A stretch of 64,000 nt of DNA from a virus. Positions 1,741 through 50,287 of this stretch are shown one piece after another. Under the pieces are notes generated by a model that was given only the letters and a program-made list of their open reading frames with translations, did not search any database and had not been told where the DNA came from. The translations under genes and the position numbers were made by a program. The stretch is taken from positions 1 through 64,000 of IMG/VR virus record IMGVR_UViG_3300028536_000016; one strand, written 5' to 3'. Numbering within the stretch: position 1 is the first letter of the stretch; each line of letters begins with the position of its first letter.

Positions 1741-1790
1741 GCCCGGGCGGTACAATGGATTACTCCCCTCCATTGCATCGCCCGGGCTTT
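1741..1790 (+). terminator. Rho-independent terminator
   Basis: A perfect 9-bp stem (GCCCGGGCG at 1741-1749 with CGCCCGGGC at 1779-1787) encloses a second perfect 7-bp stem (CAATGGA / TCCATTG) and is followed by TTTCT. It closes the small structural-type operon ending at 1712 and separates it from the membrane-protein genes that start at 1808. Confidence 0.8.
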
Positions 1791-1807
1791 CTCGTGTAGG
1801 TGGCAGT

Positions 1808-2029
1808 ATGACTTGGCACCATGTGGCATTGGTTCTGATCGCGACTGGCTTGGTAGCGACCTGCATGATAGTGGGCCGTGGCTGCACGGATTCACAGGTG
1901 AATAGCATTCACACTATCGCAGCTGCGATTGTGGGGGTTGCAGGTGGGAACGCCATGGGGCATCACCGGAACGGAGAGATATTGGACCGATTCAAACGGC
2001 GAAAGTCGCGAAAGGTAAGGAGAAAATGA
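1808..2029 (+). CDS. Small membrane protein with basic C-terminus
   Basis: A 73-residue protein with a hydrophobic N-terminal segment (VALVLIATGLVATCMIVG, about residues 6-23), a second small-residue hydrophobic stretch (IAAAIVGVAGG) and a very basic tail (RFKRRKSRKVRRK). Two short membrane passes and a charged tail would fit a holin or holin-like protein, but many small phage membrane proteins look like this. Its stop overlaps the start of the next micro-ORF by four bases, which suggests translational coupling. Confidence 0.6.
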   Translation: MTWHHVALVLIATGLVATCMIVGRGCTDSQVNSIHTIAAAIVGVAGGNAMGHHRNGEILDRFKRRKSRKVRRK

Positions 2030-2130
2030 TGTGGGTCATCTTGGGATTGGTCATTCTGCTCTTAGGCGGATGGCAGTGGTTCGCGGCGTGGCTAACTCCG
2101 GGAGTGCCGCCGCCGGGACCGTTGGGATAG
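2026..2130 (+). CDS. 34-residue transmembrane microprotein
   Basis: This short ORF overlaps the preceding gene as ATGA and has AAGGAG four bases upstream of its ATG. It encodes a hydrophobic segment (VILGLVILLLGGW) followed by a Trp-rich stretch and a Pro-rich tail (TPGVPPPGPLG). The overlap and ribosome site support translation. Function is unknown; with its neighbour it could form a two-part membrane system, which is inference. Confidence 0.55.
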   Translation: MMWVILGLVILLLGGWQWFAAWLTPGVPPPGPLG

Positions 2131-2156
2131 GCATGGGGGATGCAATAGGGAAGGGT

Positions 2157-2333
2157 ATGAAAACCAAGCTCATTTATCTCGTCAGGTTTGACTTCCCCGG
2201 TTCCGAAGCTGAGGGTCTCGAGCTGACCGAGTGGTTCAACAACCGGAAACAGGCTGAAGCCTTCCGCGAACGAATGCTTGATGCTGGGGCTGCTGTCGGA
2301 AGAGTCGCCTTCGAGGAACGGGAGATAAAGTAA
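2157..2333 (+). CDS. Small hypothetical protein
   Basis: A 58-residue soluble protein. The frame is open from 2031, but the sequence before 2157 overlaps the microprotein and is low-complexity, and AGGGAAGGG lies directly before ATG 2157. The protein has an alternating beta strand (LIYLVRFDF) then an amphipathic helix (RKQAEAFRERML). No family is recognised. Confidence 0.6.
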   Translation: MKTKLIYLVRFDFPGSEAEGLELTEWFNNRKQAEAFRERMLDAGAAVGRVAFEEREIK

Positions 2334-2336
2334 GTT

Positions 2337-2657
2337 ATGCCCATCGAAGTAGTCATCTATCAAGTCGGCGCTCGCTATGCCTGGACCCTGCAAGAGCGCA
2401 TGCCGGGATTGAACCAGGCGCGCATCATGTCGGAGGGGGTGTGCGTGACATTCCGTGCTGCTAGCGAAGAGGCAGGATTGGCGCTGCGGTCGTACAAGCT
2501 ACGCGAAGGACAGATGGGAAGAGAGGTACTGACTGTGTCACGTGGGCACACGGGAGGATGGCACTGGTCGTGTACGTGCGGATCTTTCGGGTGGAGCTAC
2601 AACGAGATCAAGAGTTGTCCGGGGTGTAAGACTTATGACAAGGGAGGGAAGTCATGA
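2337..2657 (+). CDS. Small protein with C-terminal zinc ribbon
   Basis: A 106-residue protein whose C-terminus carries CTCGSFGWSYNEIKSCPGC (about residues 79-97), a two-CxxC-like ribbon (CxC...CxxC). The N-terminal part is mixed alpha/beta. It overlaps the next gene by four bases. Many unrelated phage proteins carry such ribbons. Function unknown. Confidence 0.65.
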   Translation: MPIEVVIYQVGARYAWTLQERMPGLNQARIMSEGVCVTFRAASEEAGLALRSYKLREGQMGREVLTVSRGHTGGWHWSCTCGSFGWSYNEIKSCPGCKTYDKGGKS

Positions 2658-3103
2658 ATTGTCGTGCATGTGGGAGACTACTGGGAGAGCATCCGGTGTG
2701 TGAGATGGATTCGGGAGGTACTCTTAGGTGTGAGTACTTCGTTGATCCGGAGACGAATGGGATTGGGAGTGCTGCACTGAAACTCTCAGATGACTGGCCA
2801 GGTTGGCCACCTTGGGCAGGTTATATACGTACGGAACCTGTCAAGTTCTTGCCGTTCCCTGCTACCATTCCGAAGTCAGGTAACTACTTACCTGTGTCAA
2901 ATGGTCTCATCCAACTGCCGGAAGAACCGCGGACGGCGCCTGCGAAGTACGAACCGTATGCTCTGGCGCATGCTGAAGTTCTGACAAAGCGACGGGCAGA
3001 GATTACTCGAGTACAGCCGGCGTTCGAAAAAGCATGGAAGGCTTGGCAGGACCCGTCTCCTCGGAATCTATGGTGGAGAAAGTATTACCACATCTTCTGG
3101 TAA
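2654..3103 (+). CDS. Hypothetical protein with N-terminal zinc ribbon
   Basis: A 149-residue protein starting with CRACG...CEMDSGGTLRCEY, a possible zinc site, followed by a Trp/Pro-rich middle (DDWPGWPPWAGYIR) and a basic aromatic C-terminus (RNLWWRKYYHIFW). It is coupled to the upstream ribbon protein by an ATGA overlap. Codon use is notable for AGA and GGA, unlike the genes after 3700. No family is recognised. Confidence 0.6.
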   Translation: MNCRACGRLLGEHPVCEMDSGGTLRCEYFVDPETNGIGSAALKLSDDWPGWPPWAGYIRTEPVKFLPFPATIPKSGNYLPVSNGLIQLPEEPRTAPAKYEPYALAHAEVLTKRRAEITRVQPAFEKAWKAWQDPSPRNLWWRKYYHIFW

Positions 3104-3229: not shown

Positions 3230-3505
3230 ATGAACAAACCGGTGATTGTCAGGACGTATAGTGCGGGGGTGCATTACGGGATTCTGCAGAGTCGGGAGGG
3301 AAAAGAGGTTACCTTGACTAACGCTCGCCGGATCTGGAGTTGGCAGGGGCGTAATACGCTGCATGAGATTGCATTGAACGGCATTGGAAAGGGGAGTCGA
3401 GTCAGTGAACAGGTGCCGAGCATTCTGCTTACTGAGGCTATCGAAATCAGTGAATGTAGCGAGACCGCGGACGCCAATCTCAGGACCGCAACGTGGAACA
3501 AGTAA
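3230..3505 (+). CDS. DUF6948-like phage protein
   Basis: A 91-residue protein with the pattern VRTYSAGVHYGILQSREGKEV...ARRIWSW...LTEAIEI, which I recognise as the DUF6948 family of small phage proteins of unknown function. AAAGGGAG lies nine bases before the ATG. The last 13 bases overlap a GTG-started Gly-repeat micro-ORF in another frame, an arrangement I associate with this family. Regulation is probably through the structured leader upstream. Confidence 0.75.
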   Translation: MNKPVIVRTYSAGVHYGILQSREGKEVTLTNARRIWSWQGRNTLHEIALNGIGKGSRVSEQVPSILLTEAIEISECSETADANLRTATWNK

Positions 3506-3603
3506 TCGGGTCCGGGTCCGGGGACGGGTCCGGGTCCGGGTACGGGGACGGGTCCGGGGACGGGTCCGGGGACGGGGACGGGGACGGGTCTATAGTAAAC
3601 TGA
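3493..3603 (+). CDS. Gly-(Ser/Asp/Tyr) repeat micro-ORF
   Basis: A 36-residue ORF starting GTG within the end of the DUF6948 gene, with AGGA eight bases upstream. After MEQVI it is a strict alternation of Gly with Ser, Asp or Tyr (GSGSGDGSGSGYGDG...), ending SIVN. The alternation is clean only in this frame; the others give VRVRGRV or GPGPGTG. It could be a flexible secreted or adhesive peptide, or only a by-product of the DNA repeat. Function unknown. Confidence 0.5.
   Translation: MEQVIGSGSGDGSGSGYGDGSGDGSGDGDGDGSIVN
3508..3590 (+). repeat. GGGTCC / GGGGAC tandem hexamer tract
   Basis: Fourteen hexamer-like units, mostly GGGTCC and GGGGAC with one GGGTAC, run without interruption. Such a tract is prone to slippage in replication and to misassembly. 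Its coding frame gives Gly-X dipeptides with X limited to Ser, Asp and Tyr. Confidence 0.85.
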
Positions 3604-3651
3604 TGCTCCCCTGCCCAGCCGTGCGATGGCTGAGCAGTGATAGCGACAGCT
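3601..3651 (+). promoter_or_regulatory. Hairpin motif copy A
   Basis: TGATGC, a pyrimidine-rich stretch and a hairpin (stem CAGCC / GGCTG at 3616-3620 and 3628-3632) with loop GTGCGAT, followed by GTGATAGC at 3637-3644 and then a strong ribosome site. A second copy starts exactly 100 bases later. The loop is identical in both copies while the stem sequences differ but still pair, which argues for an RNA element rather than a DNA site. Confidence 0.6.
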
Positions 3652-3671
3652 AGGAAAGGAGGGCTATTTCC

Positions 3672-3686
3672 ATGACGCGCGGCTAA
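3672..3686 (+). CDS. Four-codon minigene MTRG
   Basis: The sequence AGGAAAGGAGGG (3652-3663), the strongest Shine-Dalgarno seen in this part of the window, precedes an ATG that opens only four codons before TAA. It sits between the two hairpin motif copies. It could be a leader peptide controlling the downstream operon or a start site lost by mutation. Confidence 0.35.
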   Translation: MTRG

Positions 3687-3700
3687 TCCCCGCACCTGAC

Positions 3701-3748
3701 TGATGCCCCTCTACCGTTGGTGCGATCGACGGTGGTGATAGCCTCAGA
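3701..3748 (+). promoter_or_regulatory. Hairpin motif copy B
   Basis: Second copy of the motif: TGATGC, pyrimidine-rich stretch, stem CCGTTG / CGACGG (3714-3719 and 3727-3732, one G-U) with the same GTGCGAT loop (3720-3726), then GTGATAGC (3735-3742) and CAG. It ends ten bases before the start codon of the coiled-coil gene at 3759, overlapping its ribosome-site region. Translational or antitermination control of the early operon is possible. Confidence 0.6.
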
Positions 3749-3758
3749 GGAAATTGAG

Positions 3759-5030
3759 ATGTCGGAAGATTTGTTCATGCCCGAACCCGCCAAGCCGAAG
3801 CGTCCACGGGCTCGCGCACCACAGCCTGAGCCGATCAGCGAGGATACTGCCGAAATAGGCGTTGGCGCGCTGGTTGAAACCGTGCAGGCCAATCCGATTG
3901 CAGTCTTTACGGACGGCAAGCAATACAGCGACTTCTATGCCCGCATGAAGGCCGAGACGGCCAAGCATGTGCCGGATGTCACGACTCCAAAAGGTCGAGA
4001 TGCGATTCGCTCACTTGCGTTCCGGGTTACGAAATCAAAAACCACGCTCGACAAGGCGGGGCTTGGACTGACGGAGGAAGCGCGCAAGACGATCGCGCTG
4101 GTCAATGAGAGCCGCAAGAAGATGGTGGCCGAGTTGGACACGCTTGCTGCCGAGGTTCGCAAGCCGCTGACGGATTGGGAGACCGCCGAGGAAGCCCGCA
4201 TCACCAAATGCAACGCCGTCATTGCCAACCTGAAATCAGCCGGATTGATCGCCGAGGATGACACCTCCGAAACCGTCCGCCAGCGCGGTGCCGAGGTATG
4301 GGAGATCGAACTGGATCCAGACCTGTTCGGCGACATGCTGGACACGGCGCAGGATGCCAAGACAGCCGCCGTGGAGGCGCTGGGCAGAGCGTTCAATCGC
4401 CTCAAGAAGGCGGAGGACGATGCGGCTAGGTTGGCGGCCTTGGAGGCAGCGGAGGCAGAGCGCCAGCGATTGGCCGATATCGAAGCGGCTGAGCGCGAGG
4501 CACGCGAGACGGCAGAACGTGAAGCGGCCGAATTGGCTGAAGCTGAAGCCGAAGAGGAACGGCGTGCCATTGCCGCTCGCGAGGCTGAACTGGCGGCGAT
4601 CGAGGAGGGCAAGCGCATTGCCGCTATGCAGGCCGCTGAAGCCGAACGAAGCCGCTTGGAGCAGGAGCGCGAGGCTGAACGCCAAGCCGAGCAGAACGCT
4701 GCTACCGGCCGCCAGCGTGAGCATGAGGCCGCGCTACGGGCCGAGCGTGACCGCTTCGATACCATCGAACGCGAGCACCAAGCAGAGATCAATCGTCTCG
4801 CTGAAATCCAGCGGCAACGGGATGCGGATGATGCTGCAGAGGCTACGCGCATCGCCGACGAAGCTGCAGCCCAGAAGGTGCGGGACGAGGATCGCGCCCA
4901 CAAGCTCAAGGTGCTGTCCGCCATCAAGGCCGCGATCATGGAGGCTGGCGGAATCGATGAGAAGCCCGCGAAGGCGATTGCTCTGGCGTTGGCGAATGGG
5001 CTTGTGCCGGCCTGCAAGGTTACTTGGTGA
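3759..5030 (+). CDS. Coiled-coil protein of the recombination module (DUF1351-like)
   Basis: A 423-residue protein. ATG 3759 with GAGGAA upstream is preferred over GTG 3717, which lies inside the hairpin motif. Residues 1-30 are Pro-rich, 30-205 are mixed, 210-370 form a long Ala/Glu/Arg coiled coil, and the end (AIMEAGGIDEKPAKAIALAL) matches the short helical domain that ends many phage proteins of this type. Such proteins sit beside exonuclease and RecT genes, as here, and resemble DUF1351 members. A structural partner in recombination is inferred. Confidence 0.7.
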   Translation: MSEDLFMPEPAKPKRPRARAPQPEPISEDTAEIGVGALVETVQANPIAVFTDGKQYSDFYARMKAETAKHVPDVTTPKGRDAIRSLAFRVTKSKTTLDKAGLGLTEEARKTIALVNESRKKMVAELDTLAAEVRKPLTDWETAEEARITKCNAVIANLKSAGLIAEDDTSETVRQRGAEVWEIELDPDLFGDMLDTAQDAKTAAVEALGRAFNRLKKAEDDAARLAALEAAEAERQRLADIEAAEREARETAEREAAELAEAEAEEERRAIAAREAELAAIEEGKRIAAMQAAEAERSRLEQEREAERQAEQNAATGRQREHEAALRAERDRFDTIEREHQAEINRLAEIQRQRDADDAAEATRIADEAAAQKVRDEDRAHKLKVLSAIKAAIMEAGGIDEKPAKAIALALANGLVPACKVTW

Positions 5031-5637: not shown

Positions 5638-5759
5638 TAGCATTCAAAGGCGCGATCGGCTTCGAAGTGCAGATATCTGCCGTCTGCCTGCATTGGCCGT
5701 ATCTGCGGTTCATGCGCGTCGGTTGCTGGCCGAGGATTTATTTGGACAGGAGCGAGTGA
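5628..5759 (+). CDS. 43-residue basic aromatic microprotein
   Basis: A short ORF bridging the 10-base overlap with the previous gene and ending as TGATG on the exonuclease start. It encodes a compact protein rich in Trp, Phe, Tyr, Cys and Arg (CLHWPYLRFMRVGCWP). The tight overlaps on both sides support translation. No function can be given. Confidence 0.5.
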   Translation: MRLIAFKGAIGFEVQISAVCLHWPYLRFMRVGCWPRIYLDRSE

Positions 5760-6844
5760 TGACGAAGACCAATCCGTTTGCAGAGGGAAATTCTGAGGTT
5801 GCTGTTGACGATTTCCTCGCCGACATGGGTCGCGAGCGCGCGCCCAAGGCAGAGCCCAAGATCGATGCGCCATGGGAACCGAAAGGCGCGCTGATCCAGA
5901 AGGCCGGCGCGTATTCTGATATCGACATTGAACTCTATCATCGAACAGAAATTTGCCCATCACCATCGCTGTCGCCGACCGGAGCCAAGCGCATGACGGG
6001 GCGCGGCACCAAGGGCTGCACGCCGCGTCACTACTGGGAGGACAGTCCGCTCAATCCGAATCGAAGGCAGCACGAGGATACAGATGCGCTGCGCTTCGGC
6101 CGTGCTCTCCATGACGCGCTGTTGCTGTCGGATCGGTGGCAGAAGCCGGGCTATTATCATGTGCTGCCAGAAGGTTTCAATCGAGCGGCCAGCGTCAAAC
6201 AGGCCATCGCGATTGACGAAGCCAATGAGGCACAGGAAGCGGGCATGACGCTGATCGGCGCAGACGATGCCATCCTGATCAATGCCATGGTGGCGGAGGT
6301 CCGAAAAAACCGCGTGGCGAACCTCTTGCTTAGCAACGGCGAACCCGAGGTGACGTTGGCCGCGCCAGATCCGAAGCTTGGAGTTTGGCGTCGTTGCCGG
6401 CCAGATTGGCTGCCGCATAAGAAGCGCGTTCTTATGGACGTCAAGACCGCCGCAGATGCCAGCTATGAAGGCTTCTCACGGGCGATAAAAGAGCGTCGTT
6501 ATGACTTGGCGGCGGCAATGCAGTTTGATGTTGTGGATCAGCTTTTCGGGCCAGATCCGGAGCGCGTATTTCAACATCTCGTCATCGAGAAGCCGACCAA
6601 GTGGCAACCTGGTGCCTACATTCCGGTCGCGCTCTGGACTCTGCCGGCCGAAGACGTGCAGCGGGGAAAGCATCTCTATCGCCGCGCCATGAACACGTTT
6701 TCGGAATGTCTGGCGCGCGGCGTCGAGGCTGAGCATTGGCCCGGCTACGCGGACACGCCTGCGCCGTGCGGACTTCCGGGCTACGAAGCGCGGCTGATCG
6801 ATGAAGGCGTGGACTTCAACGGTGTGGAGTATTCGCAGAAATGA
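5759..6844 (+). CDS. PD-(D/E)XK exonuclease, RecE / YqaJ-like
   Basis: A 361-residue protein; the start with AGGAGCGAG just upstream is preferred over earlier in-frame codons from 5423. Residues 55-120 hold a conserved helix ending in RFGRALHDALL, typical of RecE/Cas4-like nucleases, and the core CRPDWLPHKKRVLMDVKTA carries the D...(D/E)XK residues (D in RPDW, DVK). A YDLAAAMQFDVVDQLF helix follows, as in exonuclease VIII types. It would resect DNA ends for the RecT-like annealase encoded 600 bases downstream. Confidence 0.85.
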   Translation: MTKTNPFAEGNSEVAVDDFLADMGRERAPKAEPKIDAPWEPKGALIQKAGAYSDIDIELYHRTEICPSPSLSPTGAKRMTGRGTKGCTPRHYWEDSPLNPNRRQHEDTDALRFGRALHDALLLSDRWQKPGYYHVLPEGFNRAASVKQAIAIDEANEAQEAGMTLIGADDAILINAMVAEVRKNRVANLLLSNGEPEVTLAAPDPKLGVWRRCRPDWLPHKKRVLMDVKTAADASYEGFSRAIKERRYDLAAAMQFDVVDQLFGPDPERVFQHLVIEKPTKWQPGAYIPVALWTLPAEDVQRGKHLYRRAMNTFSECLARGVEAEHWPGYADTPAPCGLPGYEARLIDEGVDFNGVEYSQK

Positions 6845-7143: not shown

Positions 7144-7433
7144 CCTTCCGCCCGCGCCCCTATGATCCCGATCGGCCAGTGATCCAAACTGAAGCACAGC
7201 AACGCGCTGTCATGCGGAATTTCGGGATATTCAAATTGCGCGGGCTCTGGATATCGTGTTGCATGTTGTCTGAGCCGAACCGCAGTTTCGCGCAGGCGGC
7301 GATCGATGCGGAATTAGTGAAACGTGGCGCGTTGACGCAAAATGATCATGCGCGCGAGACAGCGCGGAAGCGGTTGAAAAAACGCGAGCGAGAAAGTGTC
7401 TTAGACGAAGACGGCTGGGACACCCCATTTTAA
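7140..7433 (+). CDS. Small hypothetical protein
   Basis: A 97-residue protein with basic Arg-rich C-terminal half (ARKRLKKRERE) and a central hydrophobic Cys-containing segment (GLWISCCML). It overlaps its neighbour by four bases. Placed inside the recombination cassette, a DNA-linked role is possible but unsupported by any motif. Confidence 0.6.
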   Translation: MTFRPRPYDPDRPVIQTEAQQRAVMRNFGIFKLRGLWISCCMLSEPNRSFAQAAIDAELVKRGALTQNDHARETARKRLKKRERESVLDEDGWDTPF

Positions 7434-7444
7434 GGAGATGCATT

Positions 7445-8377
7445 ATGGCTACCAATTCCCCCGCTACAATTGAAGAAAGTCCTTTGAAACGTTTTGATGC
7501 CCCCGTTCTGAAGGCCATGGAAAGCCAGAACATCGCCGCCGGTGTCAATCGCGCCATGTTCCAGCCGACCAACATGGGCGAGGCGATGGAATTAGCTAAA
7601 TTGATGGCATCCAGCAATTTCGTGCCGCCACATTTGCGTAATAAGGCTGGCGACTGTCTCGCGGTCGTTATGCAGGCAAGTCGTTGGGCCATGGACGTTT
7701 TTAGTGTGGCTTCCAAGTCATACTTTGTTTCGGATCGCATCGCCTATGAAGCCCAGCTCGTCAACGCCGTCATCAATTCGAGCGGCGTTCTGGATGGGCG
7801 CCTAAAATTCGACTGGCAGGGCGAAGGCAATGATCTGGTCGTGACCGTTTCGGGCAAGATCAAGGGTGAACCGGATATCAAGAAACGCCGTGTCGCGATC
7901 AAGAATATCACCACCCGCAACAGCCCATTGTGGAAGCAAGACCCCGAACAGCAGATCGGCTATTACGCCAGCCGCGCTTGGGTGCGCCTCCACGCGCCCG
8001 AGGTGCTGATGGGGGTCTATACTCCCGATGAAATCCAAAGCATCGGCATCAAGGGCGCAGCCAGCGAAGTGCGGGAACTCAAGAATGTTACGCAAATGAT
8101 AGAGGAACAGGCGCGCGAGGATGATGTCGTCTCTGACATACCCCACGATGCCGAGATCGGCGAAATCCTAGATGCGCAGGAAGGTGTCGGCGATGAAGAA
8201 ATAGGCGAGGCCACTTCGCTCGAAACCGCGAAGCAGGTGATCGACGATTGCGGCGATGATATTATGAAGATCAACGCCAACGTCTCCGCATTGCGCAAGG
8301 AGTTGAGCGAGGCCGATGGTGACGCGCTGATTGAGCATGCGCATGAGGTCATCGCCGCAATCAAGGCGAAAGGGTGA
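7445..8377 (+). CDS. recT: RecT-family single-strand annealing protein
   Basis: A 310-residue protein started by ATG with AAGGAGATG upstream. It shows the RecT pattern: FQPTNMGEAMELAKLMA at the N-terminus, PPHLRNKAGDCLAVVMQA, then SDRIAYEAQLVNAVINSS, and PLWKQDPEQQIGYYASRAW. The C-terminal 100 residues are acidic and helical. With the upstream exonuclease it forms a RecE/RecT-like pair that can anneal resected strands, giving phage recombination and possibly genome circularisation or repair. Confidence 0.9.
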   Translation: MATNSPATIEESPLKRFDAPVLKAMESQNIAAGVNRAMFQPTNMGEAMELAKLMASSNFVPPHLRNKAGDCLAVVMQASRWAMDVFSVASKSYFVSDRIAYEAQLVNAVINSSGVLDGRLKFDWQGEGNDLVVTVSGKIKGEPDIKKRRVAIKNITTRNSPLWKQDPEQQIGYYASRAWVRLHAPEVLMGVYTPDEIQSIGIKGAASEVRELKNVTQMIEEQAREDDVVSDIPHDAEIGEILDAQEGVGDEEIGEATSLETAKQVIDDCGDDIMKINANVSALRKELSEADGDALIEHAHEVIAAIKAKG

Positions 8378-49345: not shown

Positions 49346-49404
49346 AGCATGTATCGCATGCTCGGCGGACGATAACCCATTCTATAGCCAAGAGGATAAA
49401 AACG

Positions 49405-49581
49405 ATGAAAAGCAGTCGTGAACTACAGCTATTGATTGATCTGGCGCGCAGTGAAGGCCGCCGTGAAGTCGCATTTCCCGATGGCGAGTATCTGCTTGAT
49501 GCGACCATCAGGCTGACCGGCATACGGGCGGTCTCTGGCCGGAATGTGCGGTTTGTGTTGCCATCTCAGGTGGCAGCGTGA
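49405..49581 (+). CDS. 58-residue hypothetical protein
   Basis: A short ORF with AGAGGATAAA upstream of ATG. It encodes a helix (RELQLLIDLARSEG) followed by beta strands (VSGRNVRFVLPS). Overlaps the next start by one base. Confidence 0.5.
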   Translation: MKSSRELQLLIDLARSEGRREVAFPDGEYLLDATIRLTGIRAVSGRNVRFVLPSQVAA

Positions 49582-49775
49582 TGCATACCCTCATCCACAA
49601 CGCGCGGCAGACCGGTCTATGGCTGTGTGCGCTCGCCCTGTTCATCGGATACTGCATCTTGTGTGCGATTGGCGTGATTGCGGTTGCGGCATCGGTTCTG
49701 ATCCGCGTGGCTGTCTTTTGCGCTGTCTGGGTGGTTCGTTTGGTCGCCATGCACCGGGTCTTGCCGGCGAGTTGA
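49581..49775 (+). CDS. Small membrane protein
   Basis: A 64-residue protein with two adjoining hydrophobic helices (LWLCALALFIGYCILCAIG and AVAASVLIRVAVFCAVW). Starts in a TGATG overlap (GTG 49578 is an alternative). Last gene before the terminator region. Function unknown. Confidence 0.55.
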   Translation: MHTLIHNARQTGLWLCALALFIGYCILCAIGVIAVAASVLIRVAVFCAVWVVRLVAMHRVLPAS

Positions 49776-49792
49776 GACTGGGCTAAACAAAT

Positions 49793-49823
49793 GGGGCCGC
49801 AGAGGTGATGTCTCCACGGCCCC
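49793..49823 (+). repeat. GC-rich hairpin
   Basis: GGGGCCG / CGGCCCC form a perfect 7-bp stem with an inner AGAG-type pairing. No T-run follows. It lies between the end of the membrane protein gene and the terminator at 49857, and a third small stem AGGCC / GGCCT lies in between (49838-49853). Confidence 0.55.
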
Positions 49824-49856
49824 GGTATGTGTGCCAGGCCGTATTAGGCCTTCATT

Positions 49857-49880
49857 CCGGGAAACTCAAGCCCGGTTTTT
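49857..49880 (+). terminator. Rho-independent terminator
   Basis: CCGGG / CCCGG (49857-49861 and 49871-49875) followed by five T residues. It would end the plus-strand operon of the island. Confidence 0.65.
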
Positions 49881-50287
49881 GATTCCTATCTCAACCGCGA
49901 CATCACCGGAAAGAATGGATCGGCCGACGTGGGACGCCGAGTTAATTCCGGCAAATCGCGAGAGCCACAACGAGATGGGCATTCTCGTTAAAAGGCCGGA
50001 AAACGCTCGGCAACTTTGCCCCGTGATGAACGGGATCGGTTCCGGCTCCCGATGCCCCGATAGGCTAAGGATAACTGCGGCTCTACAAATGGCGTAAATC
50101 CAATAACGCGGCTCCCGGCAGACAGGGAGGGCCACCCATCCCGGCGAGATGTAATCGCACCGCAGCACAAAGAGCGTTCGGTAATCGGTAGGTGTGATCC
50201 CCTCTGGTCGATACGGGAACTAGCCCCGTAGCAGCGGCCACCTAGAGCGGAACCCGAGGAATGTTCTTTTGAGATGGAGACCTGATC
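49881..50287. other. Non-coding, hairpin-rich stretch, candidate structured RNA
   Basis: Over 400 bases without a credible gene; frames crossing it give no protein-like sequence. It holds many stems: TTCCGGC / GCCGGAA (49946, 49995) enclosing AACGAG / CTCGTT (49969, 49984); CCCGT / ACGGG (50020, 50030); ATCGG / CCGAT (50035, 50057); CTCCC / GGGAG (50112, 50125); TAGGTG / CACCTA (50189, 50239) enclosing TACGGG / CCCGTA (50212, 50225). The strand is uncertain; plus is favoured since a terminator lies before it and a plus gene after it. Confidence 0.5.

Follow-up and report, generated by a model that had tools for sequence, protein, structure and literature searches.

A small structured RNA element with a mostly fixed loop and variable stems at phage gene junctions

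A structured RNA element of approximately 50 nucleotides, which constitutes a small and previously uncatalogued RNA family without an Rfam entry, is present in nine copies distributed among six phage records. Three of these copies (W1, W2, and W3) reside in the source phage, represented by IMG/VR record IMGVR_UViG_3300028536_000016, and six are carried by five other phages. The existence of structure at the RNA level is well supported. With confidence that falls somewhat short of even, we favor a role as a cis-acting RNA element that lies between two genes of one transcript and sets the translation of the second. Binding of a ligand or protein by the element is possible.

TWO HAIRPIN COPIES IN THE SOURCE PHAGE

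The window analyzed here is a stretch of 64,000 nucleotides that begins at the first position of the source record. An earlier note on this DNA had described two hairpin copies spaced exactly 100 bases apart, and both the copies (3601-3644 and 3701-3742) and their spacing were borne out. The pattern TGATGC..GTGCGAT..GTGATAGC occurs twice in the window, whereas 100 dinucleotide shuffles yielded a mean and a maximum of 0. Fold calculations likewise agree that W1 and W2 carry the same GUGCGAU loop on unrelated stems that both pair, and the two copies folded singly give z values of -3.5 and -3.2, respectively, versus shuffled sequence. Each copy is bigger than first described. The full units span 3600-3649 and 3700-3747, and in each an outer stem (CUGAUGC/GC..CAG) surrounds a 4/5-nt internal loop (YCCY versus UGAUA) and an inner stem of 9-10 bp that is capped by the 7-nt GUGCGAU loop. 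The parts of the two units, in window coordinates, are as follows.

3600-3606, plus strand: W1 outer stem, 5' strand CUGAUGC, which contains the TGA (fold and pair count)
3607-3610, plus strand: W1 internal loop, 5' side UCCC (pair count)
3611-3620, plus strand: W1 inner stem, 5' strand CUGCCCAGCC, with one C/A mismatch (fold and pair count)
3621-3627, plus strand: W1 loop GUGCGAU (pattern scan and loop-repeat test)
3628-3637, plus strand: W1 inner stem, 3' strand GGCUGAGCAG (pair count)
3638-3642, plus strand: W1 internal loop, 3' side UGAUA (pair count)
3643-3649, plus strand: W1 outer stem, 3' strand GCGACAG (fold and pair count)
3700-3706, plus strand: W2 outer stem, 5' strand CUGAUGC (fold and pair count)
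3707-3710, plus strand: W2 internal loop, 5' side CCCU (pair count)
3711-3719, plus strand: W2 inner stem, 5' strand CUACCGUUG (fold and pair count)
3720-3726, plus strand: W2 loop GUGCGAU (pattern scan and loop-repeat test)
3727-3735, plus strand: W2 inner stem, 3' strand CGACGGUGG (pair count)
3736-3740, plus strand: W2 internal loop, 3' side UGAUA (pair count)
3741-3747, plus strand: W2 outer stem, 3' strand GCCUCAG, which touches the ribosome site (fold and pair count)

A test that was blind to loop identity points to the same heptanucleotide. In the 70.7-kb phage record, 344 hairpins combine a loop of 7 nt with eight or more pairs, and the loop most repeated among them is GTGCGAT, with three copies compared to an expectation of 0.03 per shuffle; any loop occurring at least three times was seen in only two of 100 shuffles. 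A pseudoknot between the pyrimidine stretch and the ribosome site appeared possible by eye in W1 and W2, but this pairing is not general and was dropped.

The genes and signals surrounding the two copies are listed below.

3493-3603, plus strand: 36-codon open frame with a GTG start (MEQVIGSGSGDG...SIVN), which begins inside the DUF6948 gene, near its 3' end, and stops at the W1 TGA
3657-3662, plus strand: ribosome site AGGAGG, after W1
3672-3686, plus strand: four-codon ORF (MTRG-stop) between W1 and W2
3748-3753, plus strand: ribosome site AGGAAA, after W2
3759-5030, plus strand: downstream gene (423 aa, coiled-coil), first in the recombination operon, with homologues that adjoin phage recombination genes
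5759-6844, plus strand: DUF3799 PD-(D/E)XK exonuclease-like gene, same operon
7445-8377, plus strand: RecT gene, same operon

A ribosome site comes after each copy, as had been proposed: the one after W1 precedes the sequence ATG ACG CGC GGC TAA (3672-3686), and the one after W2 precedes the gene at 3759, which does head a recombination operon including the exonuclease (DUF3799) and RecT genes. The MTRG mini-ORF may be the remnant of a lost gene. No Pfam match was obtained for the 423-aa product of the gene at 3759-5030, whose homologues in several phages neighbor genes for RecT, ERF, or an exonuclease; the protein looks like a recombination-associated family.

Upstream cistrons are harder to assign at these two copies. 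The frame at 3493-3603 is the only one that closes at the TGA at 3601-3603, and an AGGA lies approximately 7 nt ahead of its GTG, which makes it a candidate upstream cistron for W1. That it is coding is a guess, and a doubtful one, because frames that cross 12-bp repeats stay open anyway. At W2, a TGA is located 19 nt before the loop, but the frame that ends there has no start codon. Directly before W1 is a 12-bp tandem repeat (CGGGTCCGGGGA, 6.5 copies, window 3507-3590), one frame of which encodes a Gly-Ser-Asp repeat peptide that is terminated by the W1 TGA. The gene for a DUF6948 protein (window 3230-3505, Pfam 2e-29) is found just upstream.

ADDITIONAL COPIES IN OTHER PHAGES

A covariance model built from W1 and W2 alone (R1) revealed W3 on the opposite strand of the source phage, outside the window, at contig positions 65491-65540 (L406:1591-1640). 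Its sequence is CCUGAUU UGUU CGCUCAUUC GUGCGAU GGAUGGGCG CCAU AAUCAGG. The conserved domain of the gene downstream of W2 led to 80 viral loci, which were then searched with R1. Matches were obtained in three of them, each upstream of the W2-type downstream gene and on its strand (L256, 29.8 bits; L239, 19.2 bits; L278, 16.4 bits). A five-copy covariance model (R2) added L015 (25.9 bits) and two copies located approximately 690 nt apart in L323, namely L323a (32.8 bits) and L323b (20.1 bits), the latter a hairpin without the outer stem. Some members were thus found by a model trained on other members, and the copies that played no part in the choice of their genomes are W3 and the second copy of L323. 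The tandem arrangement emphasized in the earlier note is real at W1 and W2 but peculiar to that site, since the other copies are single units, including the two in L323.

When 2.9 million viral contigs and 85,000 genomes were scanned for the exact pattern, none of the matches listed had a fitting hairpin. When R2 was applied to 385 alphaproteobacterial genomes, the best match scored 28.2 bits, and none of 13 matches combined the family layout with an outer stem; the match in one of these genomes (L440) places the loop inside a gene by chance. R2 found nothing in 40 genomes from one order or in another 40 records linked by kinship of the downstream gene or RecT, and its best score among 40 unrelated viral contigs was 18.8 bits. 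The named phages Ssp-JY42, phiAX1, and Lbo-JY16 are likewise without the element, and the BLAST matches to it that came from other phages and from rhizobial plasmids seem to be chance fragments. Empty results from the R1 genome search mean little because this two-sequence model missed known members.

The hosts of the carriers are probably alphaproteobacteria, judging from gene kinship with phages such as Sinorhizobium phage phiLM21. The record labeled as Synechococcus phage Ssp-JY42 (PP438432.1) has a gene at 49369-49980 annotated as the GcrA cell-cycle regulator, an alphaproteobacterial protein, and its stated host may therefore be wrong. The phage fragment that carries the L256 copy also encodes long-repeat proteins (SAVGSAVDSAVY..., YADAYAYA...) at 1756-3066 and 7301-8080.

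A MOSTLY FIXED LOOP ON COVARYING STEMS

In general, each copy is composed of an outer stem of 7-9 bp, an internal loop with a pyrimidine-rich side of 4-6 nt opposite a side of 4-7 nt whose last bases are usually AU, an inner stem with free sequence and a length of 6-10 bp, and a 7-nt end loop. The internal loop of W3 is 4/4, and L323b has neither the internal loop nor the outer stem. By hand count over the nine copies, 72 of 73 inner pairs and 57 of 64 outer pairs are formed. In the five-copy alignment, 92% of cells pair and 11 of the 16 pairs have changed on both sides, compared to at most 49% pairing in a slid-partner control, although these figures lean toward structure because the alignment was fitted to the model. 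The outer stem often includes one nonstandard pair at its fourth or fifth position (C/A in L015, L323a, and L278; U/C in W2; A/A in W1 and L239).

The exact loop GUGCGAU is present in six copies on six different inner stems, whose 5' strands share an identity of 0.40. The remaining loops are GUGCGGU in L323a (one change), AGUGCGA in L015 (shifted), and CCAUGCG in L239, which shares only UGCG, the core that is common to all nine copies. Independent copies elsewhere support the view that this is an RNA element with a fixed loop on covarying stems, but the loop is only mostly fixed. A comparison of homologues that had been suggested as a check yielded a divided answer. Among the relatives that the downstream gene brought to light, most are without the element, and L239, which carries it ahead of the same gene, retains the pairing and the flanking sequence with a different loop, whereas unrelated junctions of other phages keep the loop on changed stems. 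The loop is thus not essential everywhere, because L239 preserves pairing and layout without it.

Fixed loops on covarying stems, together with two to three copies per genome at early gene junctions, are also what might be expected of an operator, whose loop and internal loop would be the target of a regulatory protein or small RNA that either represses translation or permits readthrough by RNA polymerase, in the manner of a coat-protein operator or nut boxB. The loop changes in L239, L015, and L323a may then follow a changed partner. The boxB of lambdoid nut sites is a small hairpin with a fixed loop and a variable stem in early transcripts, and the present element resembles it in these respects. 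Unlike nut sites, the copies have no boxA-like companion that was noticed by eye and no shared antiterminator protein, and they are linked to the stop codon and ribosome site of single genes. A BLAST search for a phage protein family common to all six carrier records found none, with the limits that short arginine-rich peptides could be missed and that some records are fragments (G005 is 18 kb). The most widespread carrier protein is the product of the gene downstream of W2, which occurs in four carriers and is present as well in six phages that lack the element. A phage-borne binder is consequently improbable unless it has diverged beyond the reach of BLAST, and an operator also leaves the fixed distance to the stop codon unexplained. 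Overall, we regard this explanation as quite unlikely. Of the two functions offered originally, antitermination finds no support, given that copies occupy single gene junctions and that carriers share no protein family, whereas translational control fits the succession of stop codon, hairpin, ribosome site, and start codon.

STOP-TO-START LAYOUT AND PORTABILITY

A TGA that closes an open frame is situated 17-23 nt before the loop in eight of the nine copies, with W2 as the exception and the W1 frame doubtful; the TGA-to-loop distances for all nine are 20, 19, 18, 19, 20, 21, 23, 19, and 17 nt. A ribosome site and ATG follow the loop by 25-44 nt in every copy, the stop-to-start gap is 51-68 nt, and in W3, L256, and L015 the outer 3' strand passes directly into AGGAGG. 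A descriptor composed of loop, stem, TGA, and ribosome site matched all nine copies and had no match in 12 related phages that lack the element. With the outer stem required, it identified 13 distinct sites in 4.8 Mb of fetched DNA, eight of which belong to the family. Because permuted loop cores gave 4-10 sites, the descriptor alone is no proof, and the evidence consists of stem covariation and loop identity.

At the element, a stretch of 74 nt shows 78% identity between L015 and L256, whereas tblastx detected no similarity between their flanking genes. The genes that flank the copies are mostly unrelated, and the unit is therefore portable. These observations, and the small number of copies, would also suit a portable palindrome that is moved by phage gene shuffling and that acts at most as a spacer or as a hairpin for mRNA stability, with no further regulatory role. 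Selection is suggested, however, by compensating changes on both sides of both stems and by the steady distances to stop and start codons, and we consider a passive palindrome very unlikely.

PROPOSED CONTROL OF TRANSLATION

A ribosome at a stop codon covers approximately 12 nt further, which at this element would include the 5' outer strand as far as the foot of the inner stem. In the translational control that we favor, the outer stem would have its 5' strand holding or adjoining the upstream stop codon and its 3' strand abutting or just preceding the next Shine-Dalgarno sequence. When no upstream ribosome is present, this stem would remain closed and would mask the margin of the ribosome site. 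Once a ribosome had halted at the TGA, it would melt that stem by covering those nucleotides and would stop at the foot of the inner stem, leaving the next ribosome site open, and the inner hairpin would serve to shorten the 51-68-nt gap. The fixed loop might be the recognition point of a host-supplied factor that tunes the coupling, although such a factor is a guess.

Fold calculations give a mixed picture. The ribosome site has a mean unpaired value of 0.17-0.76, and a ribosome at the stop codon is predicted to increase its opening in W3 (0.30 to 0.78), L015 (0.17 to 0.35), and L323b (0.34 to 0.47). In L256, L278, L239, and L323a the calculation shows no such opening or a change in the other direction, which counts against coupling, as do the lack of a started open frame before W2, the doubtful frame at W1, and the missing outer stem of L323b. 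The sample behind the coupling reading is nine copies from six records. Plain coupling also needs no fixed loop, and this too counts against it.

Precedent exists on both sides. Translation of E. coli rplT is coupled to that of rpmI at +52 nt through RNA unfolding (PMC12548453), and structure just 3' of a stop codon has been reported to reduce coupling (PMC12548453). The present element resembles rpmI-rplT in that a stop codon, a structure, and a ribosome site are contained within approximately 50-70 nt, with an upstream ribosome as the proposed opener. Known cases of coupling of this kind are single loci, whereas here a portable unit with a fixed loop joins unrelated gene pairs.

The strongest rival, and a serious one, is processing by RNase III as in phage T7, where two early genes are separated by the R1.1 site, a hairpin of 60 nt whose internal loop is asymmetric (4/5 nt) (PMC6121014). 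According to this explanation, the host enzyme is predicted to cut the 3' side of the internal loop, so that the downstream mRNA would begin just before its ribosome site and the hairpin would protect the 3' end of the upstream mRNA. W1 and W2 match R1.1 in the 4/5 internal loop and in size (approximately 50-60 nt), and seven of the nine copies place a hairpin with an asymmetric internal loop at a junction of early genes. Processing would further account for the free stem sequence, the position at gene junctions, the intact upstream stop codon, and the absence of a phage factor common to the carriers. RNase III is not known to require a fixed end loop, yet the end loop is the best-kept part of the element. 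Moreover, the inner stems of L256, L278, L015, and L239 have only 6-7 bp, while the alphaproteobacterial enzyme wants longer duplexes, and L323b lacks both the internal loop and the outer stem. The element thus differs from R1.1 in its fixed 7-nt end loop, in the stop codon within its 5' strand, and in the shorter stems of half of its copies. On balance, RNase III processing seems fairly unlikely.

Because neither coupling nor RNase III cleavage explains the fixed loop, this feature asks for a binding partner, and we infer that a host factor is the likelier candidate because the carriers share no gene. Mimicry of a T-loop or of an anticodon, or complementarity to the anticodon loop of an alanine tRNA, has been considered as a possible role of the end loop. 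A bolder form of the favored reading, which we regard as rather doubtful, is that the element represents an RNA switch of a new class, portable and anchored to a stop codon: a cassette passed from junction to junction that would sense upstream termination and whose GUGCGAU loop would be tuned by a host protein, small RNA, or tRNA.

RELATIONSHIP TO KNOWN ELEMENTS

Rfam has no family that matches at or above its gathering score, and only weak matches far below the cut-off, mostly to miRNA families, were returned. A text search of the literature for the loop sequence uncovered, among the papers listed, none whose title or abstract opening concerns GUGCGAU. The nearest described kind is the system of start-associated sequences (SAS/ESAS) in cluster K mycobacteriophages, whose repeated units with 17-bp inverted repeats lie 5' of start codons and have a proposed role in translation (PMC3203893). 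In that system, the 17-bp repeats are conserved, the spacer varies (4-13 bp), the unit lies next to the 13-bp GGGATAGGAGCCC, and there are 11-19 copies per genome (PMC3203893). Both are short inverted-repeat units positioned just 5' of starts, and the genes served by SAS/ESAS are a nonstructural subset. In contrast to SAS/ESAS, the present element has a mostly fixed loop, variable stems, and one to three copies per genome, and none of the nine copies, read through to the start codon, contains the 13-bp SAS.

Sequence searches would miss the family because its stems drift. Short gene junctions abound in phage operons, and their control is mostly obscure. A junction cassette that recurs offers a concrete test of whether a common RNA part couples or insulates neighboring phage genes, and through which host factor it might do so.
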